32,035 nt of DNA from a virus (IMGVR_UViG_3300025324_000025:1-32035), one strand, 5' to 3'. Counted from the stretch's first letter, positions 6,835 to 27,388 are shown. Translations and numbers: made by a program. Notes: generated by a model not told the origin, from the letters alone.

Positions 6835-7575
6835 CTACCCATAAGATAAAATAGTTTGCCAGTAAAATGGAGAAGGGCCAGTCAAAATAAAAGAAGGACG
6901 AATGGTCAAATCTATATCGTTTGCTGCTTCCAATGCCCACATATATTTCTGATAGTCTTCTTCCATCAGAGGCGTCCAGTTAGCCGAAGGATAATAAGAT
7001 GCAAATTGGCGAGCCAACAAATATTGGAATGTTAAATAATATTGAGGAGGAAGACCTTCCAAACTCTGTTGTTGGGTAACCGAATTTAACATACATTTTA
7101 TATTTAATTCGCATGGATAAGGCTGATCTGGCTTGGGGTAGACTGTCAAAACAGAATGAGTTTCTTGCGGATTAAGCATTATGAAAGCTGGCCGCGTTGT
7201 AACATTTGTTTGACGCACTACATTAAAATATTGAGTCCGCGTGATAACTTGAATAGGATAGGATAATTGAGTATCGCCGGCAGTTGGCAAAAAATAATTC
7301 GCAAAAGTTAAATCTACTACTCGGTCCGACACAATATCTACGCCAGGGCCGTTTCCCACTAAATAAACATCTTTTCCTGGCGTAAAAGTAAAATTTAATT
7401 TTTTTAAATAAGGAATGTAAATGCTGTCCGCACTCCACATATTTAATGTGGCATTTATTAGTTGAAGTCCCGTCCTCAACATAAATGCATCCGGAGTTTC
7501 AGTGACTGCTAATTCCCCAATCAAAAAAAGGGAGTCAACAATTAAGTCTGTGGTAGTCGGAATAATCTGACTCAC
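6835..7575 (-). CDS. Head-completion / tail accessory protein, P22 gp4-like
   Basis: This encodes 246 residues. The N-terminal region (TDLIVDSLFLIGELAVTETP, then LINATLNMWSAD) has the helical 'ALR.IG....TP....GLQ.LN.ML..W' pattern of P22 gp4-type tail accessory proteins, which bind the portal after DNA packaging. The remainder is beta-rich. Near 165-215 a helical stretch (LPPQYYLTFQYLLARQFASY) is typical of this group. The gene lies between capsid genes and the gp10-like gene, as in P22. P22 gp4 is shorter (166 residues) and carries a muramidase motif that I do not see here. Confidence 0.7.
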   Translation of the reverse strand: MSQIIPTTTDLIVDSLFLIGELAVTETPDAFMLRTGLQLINATLNMWSADSIYIPYLKKLNFTFTPGKDVYLVGNGPGVDIVSDRVVDLTFANYFLPTAGDTQLSYPIQVITRTQYFNVVRQTNVTTRPAFIMLNPQETHSVLTVYPKPDQPYPCELNIKCMLNSVTQQQSLEGLPPQYYLTFQYLLARQFASYYPSANWTPLMEEDYQKYMWALEAANDIDLTIRPSFILTGPSPFYWQTILSYG

Positions 7576-7596: not shown

Positions 7597-7836
7597 TTAT
7601 TTTACGGGAAAGGCTACTTTATCTAATCCTTTAGCAAGACTGCGCGCAAAGTCGGCTGCTTTTTCTCCATCGTTGGTCATGTAAGCATCCAATTCCTTTG
7701 CCTGAGCAGGAATAACGGGGGCTCTCCCAGCATATTTATTCCGACTCATTTGACTAGATTTAACGAATGAGTCCATTGAGTCAGATTGCGTCACCAACCG
7801 GTTCTGACTGCTTCTTTCGCTTTTTGATTTTTTCAT
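7597..7836 (-). CDS. Small basic protein of unknown function
   Basis: This encodes 79 residues, with a Lys/Ser/Arg-rich first half (MKKSKSERSSQNRL) and a helical second half ending DFARSLAKGLDKVAFPVK. ATG 7836 has AGGAG 8 nt upstream. It overlaps the 3' end of the next upstream gene by 56 nt in another frame, so the pair is probably translationally coupled. It lies between coat and gp4-like genes, a place often used for small head proteins. I do not recognise a family. Confidence 0.6.
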   Translation of the reverse strand: MKKSKSERSSQNRLVTQSDSMDSFVKSSQMSRNKYAGRAPVIPAQAKELDAYMTNDGEKAADFARSLAKGLDKVAFPVK

Positions 7837-7978
7837 TTTTAATTTCTCCTAATGTGCAATTTGAATTATTAAAACTCGGGTGAGTAAACCACTCTTTTGT
7901 TTTTAAAAAGTCCATGACCTGATCGTCGGTAACCACTTTCATTCCAAAATTTTTACTGTATATACAGGTCAAAGACAT
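7781..7978 (-). CDS. Small protein downstream of the coat gene, unknown function
   Basis: This encodes 65 residues from ATG 7978, with AAGGA 8-9 nt upstream. The first half (MSLTCIYSKNFGMKVVTDDQ, then VMDFLKTKEWFTHP) could be a small alpha/beta fold; the end is Lys/Glu-rich. The 'V-DDQVMDFLKTKEWFTHP' stretch resembles short conserved phage proteins next to P22-like coat genes, but I cannot name a family. It overlaps the following gene by 56 nt. Confidence that it is translated comes from its ribosome site and tight packing in the operon. Confidence 0.55.
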   Translation of the reverse strand: MSLTCIYSKNFGMKVVTDDQVMDFLKTKEWFTHPSFNNSNCTLGEIKNEKIKKRKKQSEPVGDAI

Positions 7979-9284: not shown

Positions 9285-10094
9285 CTATCGTTGATTAAAT
9301 TTTCCTGCGCGCATCAAATTAATGATGTCCTCCACAGGAGTGTTTTCATTTACGATAGTGGGATTTGGTGCAGGCATGTTCCTAGCCGTGCCTAAGGGAG
9401 AGGGCTTTGCCGAGGCAGCCGCTTTCTTTCCCAACCCAGCCACTAACGCATGAGATAGCTTCGCCATCTCCATTCGTTGGTTTATAGGGTGGAGTTTAGA
9501 AATTCGTGCCAGCTCCTCAGGATTTTTACCTAGGTGGTACAGTACTTCACCGGCTGAACCTGCGCCTTGTTCCGGAAGAGTCAAGGCATAATCTGCCATG
9601 GCTTGACTAATGGGGACATTTTCACCGCGTACTACATCGTCAAAATCGTCGTACTTAGTAGAAAAATCATCCAAATACTTCCCAAACTTACTGCGTAGGT
9701 TGGCTACATGAGCATTACTCATGTCCGTTAGCTTCTGCTTTTCCTGCACTTCACGTTGCTGGAGAGCATAAGTCACTGCCTTCTGAATAGTACTGTCCTG
9801 CGCTTCGACAGCTGGGTCCACAGGGGCTGACCCTTGAGGTGACGAGACTTTTTGGAGTTCAAATTGCGTCATAGCAAGTTGTTCTTGAAGAGCAGCAATT
9901 TCTCTAGCATGTTTTCTTTTTTCCGCGGTTAAGCGTTTTTGAACTGCTAGCGATTCGTCTCCACTATGGGAAGGTTTCCCATCATTGGGCTTCGAATCTG
10001 ATTTTGCTTGGTCTTCTTGAGGCTCTCCTACAGTTTTCATCACTTCATTCGGATTGATATCCAATCCGAGATTTTCTGTCTCAGTGGCTGACAT
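9285..10094 (-). CDS. Scaffolding protein
   Basis: This encodes 269 residues from ATG 10094 (GGAG about 11 nt upstream). The N-terminus is acidic and disordered. Residues about 55-90 form a charged coiled coil (KRLTAEKRKHAREIAALQEQ), followed by another helical section and a short C-terminal helix (DIINLMRAGKFNQR). P22 scaffold (303 residues) is similarly helical, with a basic C-terminal helix-loop-helix that binds coat protein. Position directly between portal and coat genes is the P22 order. Function: directs procapsid assembly and is then released. Confidence 0.8.
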   Translation of the reverse strand: MSATETENLGLDINPNEVMKTVGEPQEDQAKSDSKPNDGKPSHSGDESLAVQKRLTAEKRKHAREIAALQEQLAMTQFELQKVSSPQGSAPVDPAVEAQDSTIQKAVTYALQQREVQEKQKLTDMSNAHVANLRSKFGKYLDDFSTKYDDFDDVVRGENVPISQAMADYALTLPEQGAGSAGEVLYHLGKNPEELARISKLHPINQRMEMAKLSHALVAGLGKKAAASAKPSPLGTARNMPAPNPTIVNENTPVEDIINLMRAGKFNQR

Positions 10095-20460: not shown

Positions 20461-20697
20461 ATGTTAGTGTTGACTAGATCAGTGGGCGACCGGATTTTTA
20501 TTAATAACGGATTGATAAAAATTCAAATAGTAAGGGTGAATGGTAATCAGGTACACGTTGGAGTAGATGCCCCTAAAGAATTCTCAATTTTAAGAGAGGA
20601 AGTTTTCCACCGGTATACTCGAGATAATTCCTTCCCTCCGGGAAAGCCTTCTTCACATAACACCCCAATTGAATCAATAATTTTTGTAACGGAGTAA
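20461..20697 (+). CDS. csrA: CsrA-family RNA-binding regulator
   Basis: This encodes 78 residues; host CsrA is about 61. MLVLTRSVGDRIFINNGLIK and 'GNQVHVGVDAPKEFSILREE' follow the family closely, with the RNA-contacting L4, R6 and R45 (equal to E. coli R44) in place. The last ~22 residues (NSFPPGKPSSHNTPIESIIF) are an extra tail. CsrA dimers bind GGA motifs in mRNA leaders and block or stabilise translation. The ribosome site here is AAGGAGAA, itself a GGA motif, so self-control is possible. Phage copies may reprogram host metabolism or motility; this is inference. Confidence 0.88.
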   Translation: MLVLTRSVGDRIFINNGLIKIQIVRVNGNQVHVGVDAPKEFSILREEVFHRYTRDNSFPPGKPSSHNTPIESIIFVTE

Positions 20698-21015: not shown

Positions 21016-21231
21016 ATGAATAAAAAAATAGGTATGAAAAATTTATCGAGCTTTCATAAAGATTATAAAAATTTAAATTTTATGGAGGAATTACGAGCAG
21101 ACTACGAAAAGGAAAATGCCGATTACCATAAATTTGATAAAAAATTATTGTTACAAACCGCAGGGGCAATTTTAGCACTCAATTTTGCTACCGAGGGTGT
21201 AGTAAATTACATTTTACCTTGGATCAAATAA
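21016..21231 (+). CDS. Small protein with C-terminal hydrophobic segment
   Basis: This encodes 71 residues. The first half is charged (MNKKIGMKNLSSFHKDYKNL). Residues 46-69 (LQTAGAILALNFATEGVVNY then ILPW) are hydrophobic and could insert in a membrane. GGAT lies 7 nt before the ATG. Its stop directly abuts the first repeat-protein gene. Function unknown. Confidence 0.5.
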   Translation: MNKKIGMKNLSSFHKDYKNLNFMEELRADYEKENADYHKFDKKLLLQTAGAILALNFATEGVVNYILPWIK

Positions 21232-21435
21232 ATGAAACCGATCATCAATAAGATACGGAATAATGTAGCGGATGCGCTAGTGGATGAGTTAGTGCATAAG
21301 GCGTTGGATAAAGTATTGGCTGAGGTCTCAGGTGAGATATGGACCCCAGTATGGCATCAAGTAGCGGAGCCAGTACTCCAGGAAGTACGGGATCAAATAA
21401 TGAGTGAAAGGATTGTATCAAGTAAAGGAAAATAA
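21232..21435 (+). CDS. Tetrapeptide-repeat small protein (copy 1)
   Basis: This encodes 67 residues: MKPIINKIRNNVADALVDEL, then 'HKALDKVLAEVSGEIWTPVW'. A valine or isoleucine tends to recur every fourth residue (x-x-[KEQ]-[VI]). The regular phase is clearest in the C-terminal half (VWHQVAEPVLQEVRDQI). It is the most diverged of the first four copies and lacks the shared MKNKVG start. It begins right after the preceding stop with no strong ribosome site, so coupling is likely. Function unknown. Confidence 0.6.
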   Translation: MKPIINKIRNNVADALVDELVHKALDKVLAEVSGEIWTPVWHQVAEPVLQEVRDQIMSERIVSSKGK

Positions 21436-21657
21436 ATGAAAAATAAAGTTGGTGAAAGGGTAACAATCAAGATTCGAATGCAAGTACAGGGAAAAGTAGG
21501 GAAGCAAGTACGGACTAAAGTAGAGCAGCAAGTATGGAACGAAGTATCTGATAAAGTAGCGGACGAAATGCCAGGGCAAGTAAAGAATGCAATATGGCAT
21601 AAAATATTTCAGCAGATAGTATGGAATAAAATATCTCATAATTTGGTAAAACAATAA
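21436..21657 (+). CDS. Tetrapeptide-repeat small protein (copy 2)
   Basis: This encodes 73 residues, starting MKNKVGERVTIKIRMQVQGK. From residue 16 on it is a string of x-x-[KQE]-V units (QGKVGKQVRTKVEQQVWNEV). At DNA level the units are 12 nt with GTA or ATA as the V/I codon after AAA, CAA or GAA. The end 'IWHKIFQQIVWNKI' is nearly repeated in copy 3. AGGA upstream of the ATG is the ribosome site. The lack of other conserved features suggests the repeat itself is the functional part. Confidence 0.65.
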   Translation: MKNKVGERVTIKIRMQVQGKVGKQVRTKVEQQVWNEVSDKVADEMPGQVKNAIWHKIFQQIVWNKISHNLVKQ

Positions 21658-21673
21658 CCTTTAAAAGAAATAA

Positions 21674-21877
21674 ATGAAAAATAAAGTTGGTGAAATAGTA
21701 AGGAAAAAGTTACGTATTCAAATACACGAGGAAGGATGTGAGGAAGTATGTGAGGAAATAAACCACGAAGTATGGGAGGAAGTACACTCGGGAATAACCA
21801 ATCAAGTACCGGACGAAGTATGGCATAAAATATTTCAGGAGATAGTATGGAAAATAACCTTTCAAGGAAATAAATGA
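21674..21877 (+). CDS. Tetrapeptide-repeat small protein (copy 3)
   Basis: This encodes 67 residues. The start MKNKVGEIVRKKLRIQIHEE repeats that of copy 2, and the 15-20 nt before the two ATGs are also alike, so the start was duplicated together with its leader. The body 'CEEVCEEINHEVWEEVHSGI' keeps V/I at every fourth residue. It ends WHKIFQEIVWKITFQGNK. It overlaps the start of copy 4 by 4 nt (ATGA). Confidence 0.65.
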   Translation: MKNKVGEIVRKKLRIQIHEEGCEEVCEEINHEVWEEVHSGITNQVPDEVWHKIFQEIVWKITFQGNK

Positions 21878-22068
21878 AAAATAAAGTTGGGGAAATAGTA
21901 GAAATCAAGCTTTGGTCGGGAGTAGGGTGGCGAGTAGGGATGCAAATAGGGGGCAAAGTAGGGGGCAAAGTATTGAACGAAGTAAGGGAGGAAGTACGGG
22001 AGAAAATAGGGAATGAAGTAAGGTGGAAAGTAGGACGGCAACTATGTCATATCTTAACGAAAAAATAA
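21874..22068 (+). CDS. Tetrapeptide-repeat small protein (copy 4)
   Basis: This encodes 64 residues, starting MKNKVGEIVEIKLWSGVGWR. It contains ten consecutive unbroken x-x-[KQE]-[VI] units (21922-22041), for example 'GGKVGGKVLNEVREEVREKI'. If helical, a four-residue period gives a hydrophobic stripe drifting about 40 degrees per unit, which would favour a right-handed coiled coil (inference). It precedes the Sak4-like gene by 13 nt. Confidence 0.65.
   Translation: MKNKVGEIVEIKLWSGVGWRVGMQIGGKVGGKVLNEVREEVREKIGNEVRWKVGRQLCHILTKK
21922..22041 (+). repeat. Ten tandem 12-nt units, consensus rTAnGGnnnvAA
   Basis: Reading from 21922, ten units fit without insertion or deletion. The fixed part is AA followed by GTA or ATA at every junction; the middle bases vary with a bias to G. 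The units are coding (copy 4). The same unit recurs in arrays near 21490-21600, 23470-23580, 24994-25232 and 26090-26450. Confidence 0.75.
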
Positions 22069-22081
22069 TGGAGAGTAAATC

Positions 22082-22768
22082 GTGGGAAAATTAGTATATA
22101 TTATAGGAGAAAGTGGCTCTGGAAAAAGCACTTCCATTCGTACTTTAAATCCGCAAGAGACCTATATAATCAATATTTGTAATAAAGACCTCCCTTTTCC
22201 AGGTTCAGCGAGCATGTATCAAGAAAAATCTGAGAACAATCCTGGAAATTTATTTTTTTCGAATGAATATCGAATAGTTGGTAAATTAGTGGACGCAATT
22301 AGCGAAAGAAGACCAGAAATAAAAACTTTAATTATTGATGATTTTGGATATCTTATTACTCATCAAATTTTTGCGAGCGCTACTGATAAAGGATACGACC
22401 GCTTTACTCTTATTGCTAAATGTCTTCATGAATTTTTGGAAAAACTTCAAATGACTAGACAGGATTTGTATATATTTTTAATGTGGCATACAGATCAAGA
22501 AGAAAACAAAGTAAAATTAAAATCTTTTGGAAAAATGATTGATAGCCATTCCAAGCCAGAAGGGATGCCTGCTATTATTTTGCATACCCAAATTGTTGAT
22601 GGAAAATTTAAATTTTTAACCCAAAATGACGGCGTTCATTTAGCGAAAAGCCCATTAACTATGTTTGAAGATACTTTGATAGATAATGATCTAAAAATAA
22701 TTATCGAGCGCATGAAACAATTTTATAATAAAACCATGACTAACCCGGAGACAGACAATGAAATTTGA
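22082..22768 (+). CDS. Sak4-like RecA-fold ATPase
   Basis: This encodes 228 residues from GTG 22082 (GGAG 9 nt upstream). Walker A is GESGSGKST at residues 9-17, and Walker B is in 'IKTLIIDDFGYLI' (around 80-90). The short N-terminus, the polar 'ETYIINICNKDLPF' after Walker A and the 'LYIFLMWHTDQEENKVKLKS' strand match phage AAA_24 / Sak4 proteins, which work as single-strand annealing recombinases. It overlaps the following SSB-like gene by 11 nt; the Sak4-SSB pairing is common in phages and supports the call. Confidence 0.75.
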   Translation: MGKLVYIIGESGSGKSTSIRTLNPQETYIINICNKDLPFPGSASMYQEKSENNPGNLFFSNEYRIVGKLVDAISERRPEIKTLIIDDFGYLITHQIFASATDKGYDRFTLIAKCLHEFLEKLQMTRQDLYIFLMWHTDQEENKVKLKSFGKMIDSHSKPEGMPAIILHTQIVDGKFKFLTQNDGVHLAKSPLTMFEDTLIDNDLKIIIERMKQFYNKTMTNPETDNEI

Positions 22769-23192
22769 TCCTAAATCAAAAAAAGAAATAGAAGATATGA
22801 TCTTGATCCCAGCTGGACAATATGTGATTAAAATAATAAAGGCTTTCGAAAGAAACAACTCTTATTCTGGCGAATCAGAAATTAATTTAACTATGAATAT
22901 TTTGAATGATAATTATACAAAACCTTTGTTTGATTCTTTATCTGGAAAGGGAACGAAAATAAAAAAACTTAGAAGTTTTTGTGAAGCTGCACATTTAATG
23001 GATTCTTACGATTCTCATCAATTAACACCTGAACAATGTGTGGGAAAAATTTTAAAAGCTAACGTAAAAAAAAGAGGAGAATGGACTAATCCGGCAGGTC
23101 AAACTATAGAGGCGACCAATTATATAGATTCTTACAGCTCCCATGAAAATATTTCACAAGAATCGATGAAAGAAGATGATTTACCATTTTAA
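22758..23192 (+). CDS. SSB-like protein (DUF669 type)
   Basis: This encodes 144 residues. 'ILIPAGQYVIKIIKAFERNN' and 'GESEINLTMNILNDNYTKPL' fit an OB-fold opening. 'KIKKLRSFCEAAHLMDSYDS' followed later by 'CVGKILKANVKKRGEW' resembles DUF669/phage single-strand-binding proteins. The acidic end EDDLPF is the classic SSB C-terminal tail that recruits partner enzymes. GGAG precedes ATG 22758. It partners the ATPase encoded just upstream. Role: coating single-stranded DNA during phage replication or annealing. Confidence 0.65.
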   Translation: MKFDPKSKKEIEDMILIPAGQYVIKIIKAFERNNSYSGESEINLTMNILNDNYTKPLFDSLSGKGTKIKKLRSFCEAAHLMDSYDSHQLTPEQCVGKILKANVKKRGEWTNPAGQTIEATNYIDSYSSHENISQESMKEDDLPF

Positions 23193-23220
23193 AAAATTAA
23201 ATTAAATGTGAGTAGTTGTT

Positions 23221-23436
23221 ATGCAGCTAGTATGGAATGAAAAATTAGCAATCAAGCTTCTGATACGAGTACGGGCGCGAGTATGGTGGCTAGTATGGGA
23301 TAAACTAGGGAAGAAATTACGGGGTCAAATAAGGGATGAAGAATGGATGCCAGGAGGGAACCAAATAAAGGAAGAAGTATGGAACAGAGTAAAGAACCAA
23401 GTATTTGAGAGGTTAAAAAAAATAAATGAAAAATAA
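23221..23436 (+). CDS. Tetrapeptide-repeat small protein (copy 5)
   Basis: This encodes 71 residues: MQLVWNEKLAIKLLIRVRAR, then 'VWWLVWDKLGKKLRGQIRDE'. It has the four-residue hydrophobic period, Trp-rich, and lacks the MKNKVG start. There is no convincing ribosome site (TTGTT before the ATG). The last 11 nt overlap copy 6. Located between the SSB-like and DUF6745 genes. Confidence 0.55.
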   Translation: MQLVWNEKLAIKLLIRVRARVWWLVWDKLGKKLRGQIRDEEWMPGGNQIKEEVWNRVKNQVFERLKKINEK

Positions 23437-23626
23437 GGTGGGGAGAGTAGTAATGAATCAACTAACCGGGGAAGTAGCAGGTAAAGTAGGTGTACTATGG
23501 GGGCAAATGAGGGGGCAAGTAGAGGAGAAAGTATGGGAGAAAATACAGGAGCAATTATGGAGCACAGTACCAGACCTAGTGATGCCCCTAGCTGAGCTAA
23601 TCAAACAAACTAAGGAGCTAAAATGA
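23426..23626 (+). CDS. Tetrapeptide-repeat small protein (copy 6)
   Basis: This encodes 66 residues. The start MKNKVGRVVMNQLTGEVAGK is the shared cassette start, followed by '[QE]-[VM]-x-x' units (GQMRGQVEEKVWEKIQEQLW). It ends PDLVMPLAELIKQTKELK. The stop overlaps the DUF6745 start in ATGA, so it is co-translated with a larger conserved gene. Confidence 0.6.
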   Translation: MKNKVGRVVMNQLTGEVAGKVGVLWGQMRGQVEEKVWEKIQEQLWSTVPDLVMPLAELIKQTKELK

Positions 23627-24531
23627 AAATAGAAAAATTAACTAAAGAGCAAACCGGCAAATTCCCATATTATGTAAAAAAATGGACAGATATCGGTTTA
23701 TCAACTGAGCCAGCAGATCGTCCACGTGCGGAAGCAGCCATTAAATGGATGTACGCGCAAGCCAAATTATCAGAACCAGAAATTATATGGACACGCTCGC
23801 CTTTTGAAAATTATTTAAAATTCAATAAATTAGTTGATAACACTGATCAAACTTTTGATCCATGGAGTTCAATTTTTGGATGCCACGATGCAAACTGGTT
23901 GGGTTTTTATGATTTTTTTCGTGAAGAGTGTGGTCTTGTAAAAGAAACTGATCCTCTTCATGGTCTTTTTGAATTATCGAAATCCTGTGGGTGGTGCTTA
24001 CCATGTGAACATATGTGTTTTATGTCAGATAGGCCATTAAAAATAAACAAAGATGCCGCGGGAAGACTGCACAGCACTACTGAAGCTGCGCTTGAATATA
24101 GAGACGGGTGGAAGTTGTACCAAATTCATGGGGTGACGGTGCCCGACTTTTTTATTACTGATCCCAAAAAAATAACTATCGATCTGATCGACAAAGAAAA
24201 TAACGTGGAAGTTAAAAGAATAATGATAGGATTATATAAATCTGGAATTCAGGATTACATTTTTGATAGTGGCGCAACATTAATTGATGAAAAAAAAGAT
24301 ATTCATTCTGGGTTGCCAATTAAATTATGGAAAAAAACACGTACAAATGATACGGATATTGTAATGGTAGAAATGTTAAATACTACAAAAGAACTAAATG
24401 ACGCCGGCCAATATATTCATAAACCTTATTATATTCGAGTAAAACCCGATATTACCAATGCGCTTGAAGCAGTGGCATGGCACCATAATCAATCTCTGGA
24501 AGAATATTTAGAAACTGAGGTGGGGACTTAA
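23623..24531 (+). CDS. DUF6745 protein, unknown function
   Basis: This encodes 302 residues. The order of motifs matches DUF6745 proteins. There is an N-terminal helical segment with 'PADRPRAEAAIKWMYAQAKL', then 'CFMSDRPLKINKDAAGRLHS' followed by TTEAALEYRDGWKLYQIHGVTVPDF (here residues 130-180). Then come 'EVKRIMIGLYKSGIQDYIFD' with SGATLIDE, and a C-terminal 'ALEAVAWHHNQSLEEYL'. The family is widespread in bacteria, some members carrying leucine-rich repeats; no activity is known to me. Cys residues at about 118-133 (SCGWCLPCEHMC) may bind metal. GGAG precedes ATG 23623. A HEEH protein, often its neighbour in bacteria (my recollection), is 0.9 kb downstream. Confidence 0.75.
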   Translation: MKIEKLTKEQTGKFPYYVKKWTDIGLSTEPADRPRAEAAIKWMYAQAKLSEPEIIWTRSPFENYLKFNKLVDNTDQTFDPWSSIFGCHDANWLGFYDFFREECGLVKETDPLHGLFELSKSCGWCLPCEHMCFMSDRPLKINKDAAGRLHSTTEAALEYRDGWKLYQIHGVTVPDFFITDPKKITIDLIDKENNVEVKRIMIGLYKSGIQDYIFDSGATLIDEKKDIHSGLPIKLWKKTRTNDTDIVMVEMLNTTKELNDAGQYIHKPYYIRVKPDITNALEAVAWHHNQSLEEYLETEVGT

Positions 24532-24551
24532 AAAATTAAAGGTAAAATTGT

Positions 24552-24965
24552 ATGATTTTTAGGAGTATTAAGAGGTGTCCAAGATGCAATAAAATTCCAA
24601 AAATTAGGTATGGTAAGATCGAGCCATCTCGCCTGTATGTTTGGTATTATATAAAATGCTGCTCCTTTGTAGAATATGGTTACACCAAAAAATCTTGCCA
24701 AGATATCTGGAGAATCAAAATAAAACACTATAAAGAAAAGAGGAAAAAAATGAAATTTGAAATATTAAATGAAAATATTAAACAAGAAAAACAAAAGGTT
24801 TTATTTAAGCTTTTCGAACTTTCTAATGCAAACATCCAATTATGTTTTAAAAAAAATAGTAACACAGAATGGGAGTCTCTTTTAACTATTAGCCAAGATG
24901 GATCTATTGAACTCCAAACGTCAGCCTTCAATCAAATTCTAGCTGATATTTATGAAAAAATGTGA
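24552..24965 (+). CDS. Lar-like zinc ribbon fused to a small C-terminal domain
   Basis: This encodes 137 residues. Residues 8-60 (RCPRCNKIPKIRYG, 'YVWYYIKCCSFVEYGYTKKS' then CQDIWRIKI) follow the C-x2-C...W...C..C....(S/T)..EAI..WN.R plan of Lar, the restriction-alleviation protein. Residues 67-137, starting MKFEILNENIKQEKQKVLFK, are a separate domain. ATG 24750 at that boundary has a strong AGAGGA ribosome site, so the second domain can be made alone. The two may be an old fusion or overlapping products. Role of the first part in blunting host restriction is by analogy only. Confidence 0.55.
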   Translation: MIFRSIKRCPRCNKIPKIRYGKIEPSRLYVWYYIKCCSFVEYGYTKKSCQDIWRIKIKHYKEKRKKMKFEILNENIKQEKQKVLFKLFELSNANIQLCFKKNSNTEWESLLTISQDGSIELQTSAFNQILADIYEKM

Positions 24966-25200
24966 AGCTAGGAGGAAAAATCGTTGGATGAAAGTAGGGG
25001 GTCAAGTATACGCGCAAATAGGGGTGGCAGTAGAGGAGAAATTATGGGGGGAAGTAAGGGATTCAGTATTTGAGAAATTATGGGATAAAGTAGGGTATCA
25101 AGTAGACGTGGAAGTACGGGAGAAAGTAGAGAAGGAAGTACGGGAGGAAGTATGGGATAAAGTAGGGGTGCAAGTATGGGATAAAATGTGGAACAAGTAG
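24952..25200 (+). CDS. Tetrapeptide-repeat small protein (copy 7)
   Basis: This encodes 82 residues, starting MKKCEARRKNRWMKVGGQVY. From residue 15 it is 16 unbroken x-x-[KEQ]-V units (24994-25185), for example 'REKVEKEVREEVWDKVGVQV', the longest array in the window. The array then has an 11-nt unit which breaks the frame, and copy 8 carries on in the new frame. The gene overlaps the end of the Lar-like gene by 14 nt. Confidence 0.6.
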   Translation: MKKCEARRKNRWMKVGGQVYAQIGVAVEEKLWGEVRDSVFEKLWDKVGYQVDVEVREKVEKEVREEVWDKVGVQVWDKMWNK

Positions 25201-25232
25201 GGGAGAAAGTAGTGGAACAACTAAGGGAGAAA
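24994..25232 (+). repeat. Longest 12-nt repeat array, with one 11-nt unit
   Basis: Sixteen 12-nt units run from 24994 to 25185, then an 11-nt unit (25186-25196), then three more 12-nt units from 25197. The single missing base shifts the frame between copies 7 and 8. The units share the AA-rTA junction seen elsewhere. Confidence 0.75.
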
Positions 25233-25460
25233 GTAGAGATAGGAATTAATATATCATCCAAAATACGGAATAAAATACGGCGGGAGGTAAAACAGCAAGT
25301 AGACAATAAAGTTTGGGATGAAGCATGGCGCCCAGTAGTGAAGCAAGTAAATGAGCGAGTATTTGATCAAGTACCGTTACGGTGGAGCGTAATGGACGAA
25401 ATTTATTCTAAATTAAAAACTAAAGCAGGAGAAGAAAATGCAAAAAGTAAAAGTAACTAA
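25188..25460 (+). CDS. Tetrapeptide-repeat small protein (copy 8, frame-shifted continuation)
   Basis: This encodes 90 residues from GTG 25188, starting MEQVGEKVVEQLREKVEIGI. The repeat units continue those of copy 7 with a one-base shift; adding one base would fuse the two into a 169-residue protein. After 'NISSKIRNKIRREVKQQVDN' the period weakens. Ribosome site is poor, so translation may depend on coupling to copy 7, or this could be a degraded 3' half. It overlaps the start of the HEEH gene by 23 nt. Confidence 0.5.
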   Translation: MEQVGEKVVEQLREKVEIGINISSKIRNKIRREVKQQVDNKVWDEAWRPVVKQVNERVFDQVPLRWSVMDEIYSKLKTKAGEENAKSKSN

Positions 25461-25776
25461 CCGAGGTCGTCAAGGGGATGTTTACTTAAAAAAAGTAAAA
25501 TTGCCAAAAGAAATTATCGTAAAAGAATTTCCCAATAATAAAATTATTTTAGCATTCGGAGAAAAAACTGGGCATCATCATAGATTTGAGACGGCCAATG
25601 TTAAAATGTTTGTTGCAAAAGATGGTAGCGGAAAAACTTATGTATTAATTACTGAATATTCAGCCGAATTAAAACATGAGGAGCATGATCCCGTTATATT
25701 TAATCCTGGTGCTTACGAGGTGTTAATTGCTCGACAATGGACTGATGCCGAAGAGCCCGTTAAGGTTGAGGATTAA
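25438..25776 (+). CDS. His-rich 'HEEH' protein, DUF6745-associated
   Basis: This encodes 112 residues. 'GRQGDVYLKKVKLPKEIIVK', 'LAFGEKTGHHHRFETANVKM' and 'AELKHEEHDPVIFNPGAYEV' followed by ARQW form a pattern I recall from small bacterial proteins (GDV...GE.TGHAH...L.HEEH.PI...G.Y.V..QRE) encoded beside DUF6745 genes. The conserved HHH and HEEH histidines suggest metal binding in a beta-sandwich. GGAG precedes ATG 25438. Here the DUF6745 gene lies upstream, separated by Lar-like and repeat genes. Function unknown. Confidence 0.6.
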   Translation: MQKVKVTNRGRQGDVYLKKVKLPKEIIVKEFPNNKIILAFGEKTGHHHRFETANVKMFVAKDGSGKTYVLITEYSAELKHEEHDPVIFNPGAYEVLIARQWTDAEEPVKVED

Positions 25777-25797
25777 TTAAAAAAATAGGAGAAAAAA

Positions 25798-25986
25798 ATG
25801 TGGTGGAATTTTCTTAAAAATACATGTACGCACCCTATTATAAAAAAAATAGATAAAAAAATTAGTCAACATACTTGTGATTGTTGCCATAAAGAGTTGT
25901 TTATTCAAGAGGAGATAAATTCTGAAGTGGTAGAAAATCCCAATAATTTTTATGAAAAGTATGCGCTGGAAGAGGTAAAAATTTAA
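25798..25986 (+). CDS. Small Cys/His protein, unknown function
   Basis: This encodes 62 residues with a possible zinc site in 'CTHPIIKKIDKKISQHTCDC' followed by CHKEL. The rest is acidic (IQEEINSEVVENPNNFYEKY). GGAG lies 6 nt before ATG 25798. It abuts copy 9 of the repeat family. Confidence 0.5.
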   Translation: MWWNFLKNTCTHPIIKKIDKKISQHTCDCCHKELFIQEEINSEVVENPNNFYEKYALEEVKI

Positions 25987-26280
25987 ATGTTTTCTAAAAT
26001 TAAATCTATGATGAAATGTCTTTTTTTGAGAGAAGACTTAAAAAATAGTCCTGGTGAAAAGCTAGCGGAAAAGCTAGGCGTGCAAGTCGGCAAACAAGCA
26101 AGGGCTCAACTATACGATCAAGTATTCTATCAAGAATTCAATCAAGTATTCGATCAAGTACACGATCAAATAACGGATCAAATACCATGGAGGGTACTTG
26201 TGAAAGAGCTGAGGGATCTCGAACTAATAAAATTATTAGAGTATAGGAGAAATAACCGGAGCAATCACGGAAGGAAATAA
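25987..26280 (+). CDS. Tetrapeptide-repeat small protein (copy 9)
   Basis: This encodes 97 residues. A unique N-terminus (MFSKIKSMMKCLFLREDLKN) is followed by repeats of a different flavour, (Y/F/D)-(D/Q)-Q-V/I: 'LYDQVFYQEFNQVFDQVHDQ' then ITDQI. Here the 12-nt unit is mostly GTA-n(4)-GATCAA. So the family's central two residues drift as a block within one gene. The tail is basic (YRRNNRSNHGRK). Confidence 0.6.
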   Translation: MFSKIKSMMKCLFLREDLKNSPGEKLAEKLGVQVGKQARAQLYDQVFYQEFNQVFDQVHDQITDQIPWRVLVKELRDLELIKLLEYRRNNRSNHGRK

Positions 26281-26296
26281 TAACCGAAGTAATTAA

Positions 26297-26512
26297 ATGA
26301 AAAATAAAGTTGGTAAAACCGTAGCATTCAAGCCTTGGTCGGAAGTAAGTTGGGGACTAGAGATGCAAGTAGGGGGCAAAGTAGAGATGCAAGTAAGGGG
26401 CAAAGTAGGGATGCAAGTATGGAACGAAGTGGATCAAATATTTGATCAAACACGGGATAGAGCAGTATGGTTCGCAATTATCACCGAGCTTCAGGGACTT
26501 ACTAAAAACTAA
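26297..26512 (+). CDS. Tetrapeptide-repeat small protein (copy 10)
   Basis: This encodes 71 residues, starting MKNKVGKTVAFKPWSEVSWG, the shared start. Then 'GGKVEMQVRGKVGMQVWNEV' units, with a 9-nt unit near 26430 that keeps the frame. It ends FAIITELQGLTKN, similar in feel to the end of copy 9 (VKELRDLELIKLLEY). The 5' leader retains repeat-like sequence (ACCGAAGTAATT). Confidence 0.6.
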   Translation: MKNKVGKTVAFKPWSEVSWGLEMQVGGKVEMQVRGKVGMQVWNEVDQIFDQTRDRAVWFAIITELQGLTKN

Positions 26513-26523
26513 AGAGTAAAATT

Positions 26524-26712
26524 ATGAGCAAAAATTGGTTTTATCATGACTATTTATATTCCGATCTGCTTACACATTCTGTGATATGTAGACTTTGCAG
26601 TAAAAATTTTAGCATCCCTACGGACTACTCTGAGGGAGGGTCTGCTAAGCTGAATATGGACAAAGAAATATGGGAACATTTTCGGGATACTCATTCAGAG
26701 GTACTTCCATGA
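26524..26712 (+). CDS. C2H2-like zinc-finger mini-protein
   Basis: This encodes 62 residues. 'SVICRLCSKNFSIPTDYSEG' followed by 'NMDKEIWEHFRDTHSEVLP' gives C-x2-C ... H-x4-H, the layout of a single zinc finger, with an enlarged linker. Such single fingers occur in phage early regions, role unknown. The stop overlaps the next ATG (ATGA). Confidence 0.6.
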   Translation: MSKNWFYHDYLYSDLLTHSVICRLCSKNFSIPTDYSEGGSAKLNMDKEIWEHFRDTHSEVLP

Positions 26713-26912
26713 AACCTGGGAAACTATTAAGTAACAAATTAAGCTATGACTTGTGTGGTGGCTGGGTCACCCCAATGGTATGGGGGAGGGTGAAAAATAC
26801 TATTTGTATAGAGGTACAAAAGAAAATATTACAGAATAAAATTTTTCGGGTAAAACCCATATTTGAAGAGTTAGACTTAATGAAAACTCAGAGCCTCACA
26901 AATGAAAAATGA
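26709..26912 (+). CDS. Diverged member of the repeat family (copy 11) or unrelated small protein
   Basis: This encodes 67 residues from ATG 26709, starting MKPGKLLSNKLSYDLCGGWV. 'VWGRVKNTICIEVQKKILQN' keeps hydrophobic residues near a four-residue period, but the 12-nt DNA pattern is lost. It is coupled to both neighbours by overlaps. I count it as a possible decayed copy. Confidence 0.45.
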   Translation: MKPGKLLSNKLSYDLCGGWVTPMVWGRVKNTICIEVQKKILQNKIFRVKPIFEELDLMKTQSLTNEK

Positions 26913-27147
26913 GCCAGGAAAATGTGTTAGAGAACTAATTGCGCCCATTTTTTGTGGCAACGTTGGCGGGGCAGGTTTTAGTTTTATGGGTCCTCAGAAG
27001 GAATGGGAAGATATGTGTTTTTCGGTGGATATACGATTAACAATGCACCTCCCATGGAATCTTTACTGCACGGTATGGAAAAAGGTTCCATACCCGATTG
27101 CACAATATCTTTACGAACTCCGCCGGATCCAGAAGAATGAAAAATAA
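26902..27147 (+). CDS. Small protein with family-like start, unknown function
   Basis: This encodes 81 residues, starting MKNEPGKCVRELIAPIFCGN. The first bases (ATGAAAAATGAGCCAGG) resemble the family's start, but the body (GGAGFSFMGPQKEWEDMCFS) has no tetrapeptide period. It overlaps both neighbours by about 11 nt. Confidence 0.45.
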   Translation: MKNEPGKCVRELIAPIFCGNVGGAGFSFMGPQKEWEDMCFSVDIRLTMHLPWNLYCTVWKKVPYPIAQYLYELRRIQKNEK

Positions 27148-27388
27148 TTCGCCTAAATTATTAAAGGATAAGAAAGCGGCTTATATATGGGTGAACAAAA
27201 CGCGACTATTAAGGGATAAAATATTTCACTCTGCAACAAGCAATATATGGGAAAAAATGGACGCCGGCGTCACCTTTAAGGTAAGAACGCAACTATCCAA
27301 TAATATTGATTATACAGATATTAATATGATAGACGATAATATAAAAGAACAGATTTTTAATGATCTAAATTTAAAAATCAAAAAATAA
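27137..27388 (+). CDS. Small protein with family-like start, unknown function
   Basis: This encodes 83 residues from ATG 27137, starting MKNNSPKLLKDKKAAYIWVN; a longer frame to 27098 has no ribosome site. A weak echo of the period is seen in 'LRDKIFHSATSNIWEKMDAG'. The tail is acidic then basic (DYTDINMIDDNIKEQIFNDL). It may be a far-diverged repeat-family copy. Confidence 0.45.
   Translation: MKNNSPKLLKDKKAAYIWVNKTRLLRDKIFHSATSNIWEKMDAGVTFKVRTQLSNNIDYTDINMIDDNIKEQIFNDLNLKIKK

Follow-up and report, generated by a model that had tools for sequence, protein, structure and literature searches.

Ten small tetrapeptide-repeat genes in a phage early region look like detached repeat domains of a DUF6745 protein

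What are the small proteins, built almost wholly from four-residue repeats, that recur among the early genes of a phage? The 32,035-bp IMG/VR virus record IMGVR_UViG_3300025324_000025 (the window, meaning the whole stretch of DNA that was analysed) contains, between positions 21,232 and 26,512, ten small open reading frames (ORFs) of 64–97 codons in four blocks, made of 12-nucleotide (nt) units that encode x-x-[QKE]-[VI]. The ten genes and their exact unit had been recognized in a first-pass annotation, and both stand: Tandem Repeats Finder also recovers the 12-nt period, and the spaced pattern AARTA-7-AARTA-7-AARTA gives 27 matches on the plus strand, none on the minus strand and none for a reversed-pattern control. 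The upper end of the length range then given (67–97 residues) holds, but the lower end is 64 amino acids (aa), reached by ORF 4. The unit junction AA-rTA, described as fixed, is a strong bias that this word slightly overstates, with the last five bases of 85 window units being A (78%), A (81%), G (67%), T (conditioned on V/I/L) and A (87%). Missed by that annotation were the two relationships from which our answer is built, namely that the arrays correspond to a separated repeat domain of the DUF6745 protein and that HEEH is its conserved partner. We consider it highly probable that the arrays form a protein-coding, DUF6745-linked, unit-shuffled repeat family.

The arrays are protein-coding, and one frame alone is kept open. 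Among 1,495 distinct spacers from 63 genomes, gathered by DNA pattern with no demand for an open frame, the x-x-Q-V frame contains 6 in-frame stops against 147 ± 8 expected when the same columns are shuffled within each locus, whereas the other frames stay near expectation (155 vs 145 in frame +1, 210 vs 189 in frame +2). This count omits L051, L079 and L156, three loci that contain unrelated simple repeats; with them included, on a smaller set, 28 stops are found where 75 are expected. The depletion in a single frame supports, at the level of sequence, the earlier proposal of a genuine translated family, and rejects AG-rich low-complexity DNA free of coding selection, the alternative that the first-pass annotation had itself raised.

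In many phages, the array lies inside the DUF6745 protein (PF20530), between an N-terminal part and the C-terminal core. Such proteins, e.g., gp38 of the mycobacterial prophage prophiGD102-1 with its x-x-Q-L units and UOF77368.1 of MW202476, carry the same type of repeat (QV, QL, NL, SV and SL variants) under the same third-base rule as the window arrays (see below); the difference is that the array is within the DUF6745 protein there and outside it, in ten separate genes, in the window. An array in another frame in MW202476, suspected from an x-S-S-L peptide, was ruled out on reading the DNA. When DUF6745 loci were collected by the core alone, independently of the arrays (80 loci, 51 lineages), free arrays were present in the available DNA of 31 of the 36 unfused lineages and in none of the 15 fused ones (Fisher test, 5e-9), and a separate count found free arrays with 0 of 30 fused DUF6745. 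In long records of fused phages, arrays occur, among the matches listed, in one gene only, and one record has none. Unfused DUF6745 is also found in long records ascertained through their arrays (G155, G157, G159 and others), and the window, with an unfused DUF6745 and ten free arrays, holds the tetrad repeat in trans only. This mutual exclusion of fused and free forms is what would follow from an array module that is provided in cis or else in trans, and the sequences make the free arrays look like a repeat domain that has come away from the DUF6745 protein.

Phage and bacterial DUF6745 alike have a conserved partner, the small protein HEEH, which bears GHxHR and HEEH motifs. HEEH is found at 71 of the 80 DUF6745 loci, directly upstream of DUF6745 in an actinobacterial genome, in Microcystis phage Ma-LMM01 (gp175/gp174), and as gp37 adjoining gp38 in prophiGD102-1; the window copy has no significant Pfam match. 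The neighbours of the arrays had been correctly identified from the outset as Sak4-like/SSB, DUF6745 and HEEH genes, but they are not all unrelated, as then supposed: DUF6745, HEEH and the arrays are parts of one system. In L492 (G155), from ~8747 onward, one protein seems to unite a DUF6745-like tail and a HEEH-like start, a possible natural fusion. The genes flanking the pair in one bacterial DUF6745/HEEH genome may resemble the STM4014/STM4015 group. A gene for the RNA ligase RtcB adjoins fused DUF6745 and HEEH in just a single contig (L110/L387), and a link to RNA repair was rejected.

Within a genome, the units hardly vary at third codon bases, and their variation falls on the first two bases of codons 1 and 2, with heterozygosities of ~0.4–0.7 at these variable bases vs often <0.2 at third bases; the constancy is looser in the window and in the most diverged genomes. 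The third base is set by the slot in the unit and not by the amino acid. Glycine is GGG in slot 1 (17/17) and GGT in slot 2 (13/13) of G023, and is likewise divided by slot in L193 (GGG 7/7 vs GGT 16/16), where valine is GTT in slot 2 (8/8) and GTC in 86% of slot 4; in G019, valine is GTT in slot 2 (6/6) and GTC in 99% of slot 4. In the window, 89% of slot-4 valines are GTA, vs 29% in other long ORFs. Because the codon for one amino acid differs by slot, codon usage is ruled out as the cause of the fixed third bases. The fixed bases themselves change with lineage (CAAGTC, CAGGTC, CAAGTA, AGCAGCCTC, AACCTC, AGCGTC and GCCGCA, with AGC AGC CTC fixed in one lineage), which rules out CAAGTC/AAGTA as a universal DNA motif and makes a nucleotide-level function common to all arrays unlikely. 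Among units with one difference and identical neighbours, 281 changes are nonsynonymous and 12 are synonymous (4% synonymous vs 24% expected), a count that is no clean selection test since the exchange of existing units, and not new mutation, may partly explain it.

The arrays differ between near-identical strains. Five assemblies do not differ in their DUF6745 core (597 nt) and have flanks that are 98.2–99.99% identical over ~10–12 kb (L411 vs L412, L413 and L416, 99.9% over 9.8–11.2 kb; vs L415, 98.2%), yet they carry from one to five array genes upstream of DUF6745, and their downstream array genes are extended by whole units or fused together, always in frame; in some of these assemblies the contig end is close to the arrays. 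In two further near-identical pairs, the difference amounts to one or two whole units. That such close strains vary in the number and fusion of array genes points to units being shuffled in register.

The family is widespread in viral metagenomes, with up to 21–26 gene copies per stretch; in the largest cluster seen (L453, 7.1 to 17 kb), 26 array ORFs occupy one 17-kb locus. Many DNA-pattern matches were simple repeats of unrelated proteins, and these were excluded by demanding heterogeneous units. Each genome has its own recurrent array start and end, such as MKSVHKQI...HEISS, MNSVK...ENE or MKNV...KQNIKL. Searches of Pfam, NCBIfam and PADLOC found neither the free-standing array family nor its DUF6745–HEEH link, weak matches to the arrays come from a few PHROGs of unknown function, and a full-text literature search for DUF6745 returned no paper. 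No close relative of the window was found in IMG/VR through the Sak4 or DUF6745 protein at the sensitivity of single-protein scans. In L393 (G021), ORFs at 7049–7246, 7698–7892 and 9688–9891 have array-like starts (MKSVHKQI, MKSVHRHI) followed by unrelated non-repeat sequence, and are possibly new genes born from array genes.

In AlphaFold2 models, the N- and C-terminal parts of the fused DUF6745 protein are predicted with confidence, and the array between them (residues 62–190) appears as a long helical hairpin of low confidence (predicted local distance difference test, pLDDT, mostly ~50–66). Array ORF 2 of the window is predicted to form two helices (residues 4–44 and 47–72, pLDDT 70), so that the helical nature foreseen by the first-pass annotation is borne out by the structure prediction for a single array protein; the right-handed coiled coil or filament that it also proposed is conceivable.

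That no described phage family resembles these genes, as had also been stated, holds for the genes themselves but not for their repeat. Gp54 of mycobacteriophage Tweety contains 48 units, each of 12 bp and invariant at bases 3 and 6–12, with variation only at bases 1, 2, 4 and 5; its invariant third positions were noted in 2007, and the authors proposed selection for variation (PMC2884959). According to two reviews (PMC9262239, PMC8549241), Tweety escapes the prophage defences of Phrann and MichelleMyBell through gp54 mutants with more or fewer tetrapeptide repeats, and gp54 is a tunable counter-defence protein. Gp54, as well as Che8 gp57 and PMC gp51, resembles the arrays in its 12-bp tetrapeptide units with two constant and two variable residues, in its invariant third codon bases, in its slot-1 codons (GGG/TGG/CAG, matching the NGG of the arrays), and in a repeat number that varies among relatives and also in escape mutants. 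Unlike the arrays, gp54 is a single gene with the constant pair AA and unique N- and C-terminal parts, and it has neither detectable DUF6745 or HEEH homology nor the free-standing multi-gene repertoire of the window. The window genes follow the repeat logic of Tweety gp54, yet are not members of that family; by analogy, they may do the same kind of job. An in-frame variable-number repeat in a non-essential phage gene, VR2 of bbp36 in Bordetella phage BMP-1, is described in the same paper (PMC2884959). Its element measures 24 bp, vs 12 nt in the arrays. Transcription activator-like effector (TALE) repeats also combine a constant repeat with two variable residues and diversify by unit shuffling; their units are of 34 residues and bind DNA, and homology to the arrays is not claimed. 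Pentapeptide repeats are short-period repeat proteins that form a five-residue beta-helix, whereas the arrays have a period of four and are predicted to be helical.

In the explanation that we favour, the ten small genes would be free-standing copies of the helical tetrapeptide-repeat module found inside DUF6745 in related phages and in the mycobacterial prophage. Given a 12-nt unit with nearly constant codons 3 and 4, recombination between arrays would keep both frame and register, so that each unit's two variable residues would continually be combined anew on an otherwise constant amphipathic helix hairpin. The variable modules may then set the specificity or geometry of a DUF6745–HEEH activity in phage–host or phage–phage conflict, as a tunable counter-defence analogous to gp54. 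We give this explanation in full, from detached DUF6745 module through register-keeping shuffling to the specificity of a conflict activity, an even chance of being correct. A role of the arrays in host or phage conflict, taken by itself and by analogy with Tweety gp54, is put forward with some doubt, and more tentatively still we suggest a recombination-shuffled, multi-gene repertoire of tiny helical DUF6745-derived proteins that would act in trans as interchangeable specificity modules, a rapidly evolving, antigenic-variation-like counter-defence in which recombination that keeps register would restrict variation to the first two bases of codons.

Several observations weigh against this explanation. 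Tweety gp54 does not match the DUF6745 profiles and shares no core homology, so that the function of the arrays is borrowed by analogy; the array, DUF6745 and HEEH proteins of the window have no match among PADLOC models, which also rules out a known anti-phage defence family as their identity; and the DUF6745 model has no match in the PDB at E <0.001. The array models are of moderate confidence only (pLDDT ~55–70), the strain differences rest on metagenome assemblies in which repeats are open to misassembly, and DUF6745 was undetected in three large array records (G018, 102 kb; G156, 98 kb; G172, 50 kb). Moreover, the constant third bases may come either from shared descent with selection for amino-acid change or from a nucleotide-level requirement.

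Among the other explanations, the least improbable is a structural role, in which DUF6745 and the small proteins would jointly build a helical scaffold or filament, with residue variation that would only tune packing and with no arms race. The predicted helix hairpins, the four-residue hydrophobic period and the cis/trans alternation are all compatible with such a scaffold; we nevertheless consider it unlikely, as it leaves unexplained the excess of amino-acid changes at slots 1 and 2 and the up to 21–26 differing copies per genome. Less likely again is that the arrays act as DNA or RNA (protein-binding sites, an RNA sponge or a recombination substrate) with the peptides as a by-product. This would account for third bases that are slot-fixed against codon usage, and an RNA sponge would fit the GGA-rich units with a CsrA gene nearby (20461–20697), but stops are purged in the x-x-Q-V frame only, array starts and ends are conserved per genome, the fixed nucleotides are wholly different between lineages with no common motif, RNA structure is inconsistent (z from +2.3 to −3.5), and Rfam gives no match. 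Selfish or neutral expansion, with slippage-prone in-frame repeats spreading in the absence of function, strikes us as equally improbable. Against the fast change of copy number and length, the low complexity and the unfused-DUF6745 lineages in which no array was found stand the purged stops, the strict alternation with the DUF6745 repeat domain, a nonsynonymous excess unlike random drift, and the hydrophobic fourth residue, which copies with strong divergence (L081) still retain over ~16 units. Variation restricted to the first two bases of two codons in each unit has the targeted look of a diversity-generating retroelement or similar hypermutation, which we regard as ruled out, its chance being very slight: no reverse transcriptase (PF00078) was found in 12 records (the window and 11 array-bearing ones, which may be fragments), and many genomes conserve the adenines at unit bases 8 and 9, contrary to what adenine mutagenesis would produce.

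The array genes of the window are almost wholly repeat, and the gaps to their neighbours range from −23 to +28 nt (Table 1). Since they abut or overlap these neighbours, including the ATGA shared by ORF 6 and DUF6745, they appear to form one operon with the Sak4-like (phrog_2872, E 2e-58), SSB-like (SSB/DUF669), DUF6745 and HEEH genes; the overlap of the ORF 6 stop with the DUF6745 start makes translational coupling of these two likely. The early region lies on the plus strand from ~20 kb, and the minus strand encodes portal, large terminase and major head proteins of tailed-phage head and packaging type. A CsrA homologue (PF02599, E 1e-18) stands at the head of the early region, with no link to the arrays shown. 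Just downstream of the last array, ORFs at 26670–26912 and 27098–27388 have a decayed four-residue pattern and are perhaps degenerate array copies.

Table 1 Array genes and associated genes of the window.
Feature	Coordinates	Strand	Length (aa)	Remarks
Array ORF 1	21232..21435	+	67	0-nt gap after ORF 21016–21231
Array ORF 2	21436..21657	+	73	start MKNKVGE; AAAGGAAA precedes start
Array ORF 3	21674..21877	+	67	start MKNKVGE
Array ORF 4	21874..22068	+	64	start MKNKVGE; ATGA overlap with ORF 3
Array ORF 5	23221..23436	+	71	
Array ORF 6	23426..23626	+	66	start MKNKVG; ATGA overlap with DUF6745 start
DUF6745 protein, unfused form (no internal array)	23623..24531	+	302	PF20530 E 1.1e-36; window-excluded profile E 3.5e-43
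Array ORF 7	24952..25200	+	82	Tandem Repeats Finder array 25029–25236
Array ORF 8	25188..25460	+	90	23-nt overlap with HEEH start
HEEH protein	25438..25776	+	112	GHHHR...HEEH motif; phrog_27831 E 2e-11; window-excluded profile E 1.5e-18
Array ORF 9	25987..26280	+	97	DQV-type units 26106–26169
Array ORF 10	26297..26512	+	71	start MKNKVGK

What is new here is a much larger, multi-gene version of a kind of repeat for which a single phage protein had provided the example. The small phage genes, a large and unannotated family, are tied to the DUF6745–HEEH pair of bacteria and phages, conserved but uncharacterised, and also to Tweety gp54, the only tetrad-repeat protein for which a function has been reported; the oddity noted in 2007, invariant third codon positions, becomes a general and testable rule. 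Experiments are feasible, as Ma-LMM01 and prophiGD102-1 are known carriers of DUF6745–HEEH. If the analogy with gp54 is true, phages would possess, with no need of a reverse transcriptase, a shuffling protein repertoire whose 12-nt unit always recombines in frame.

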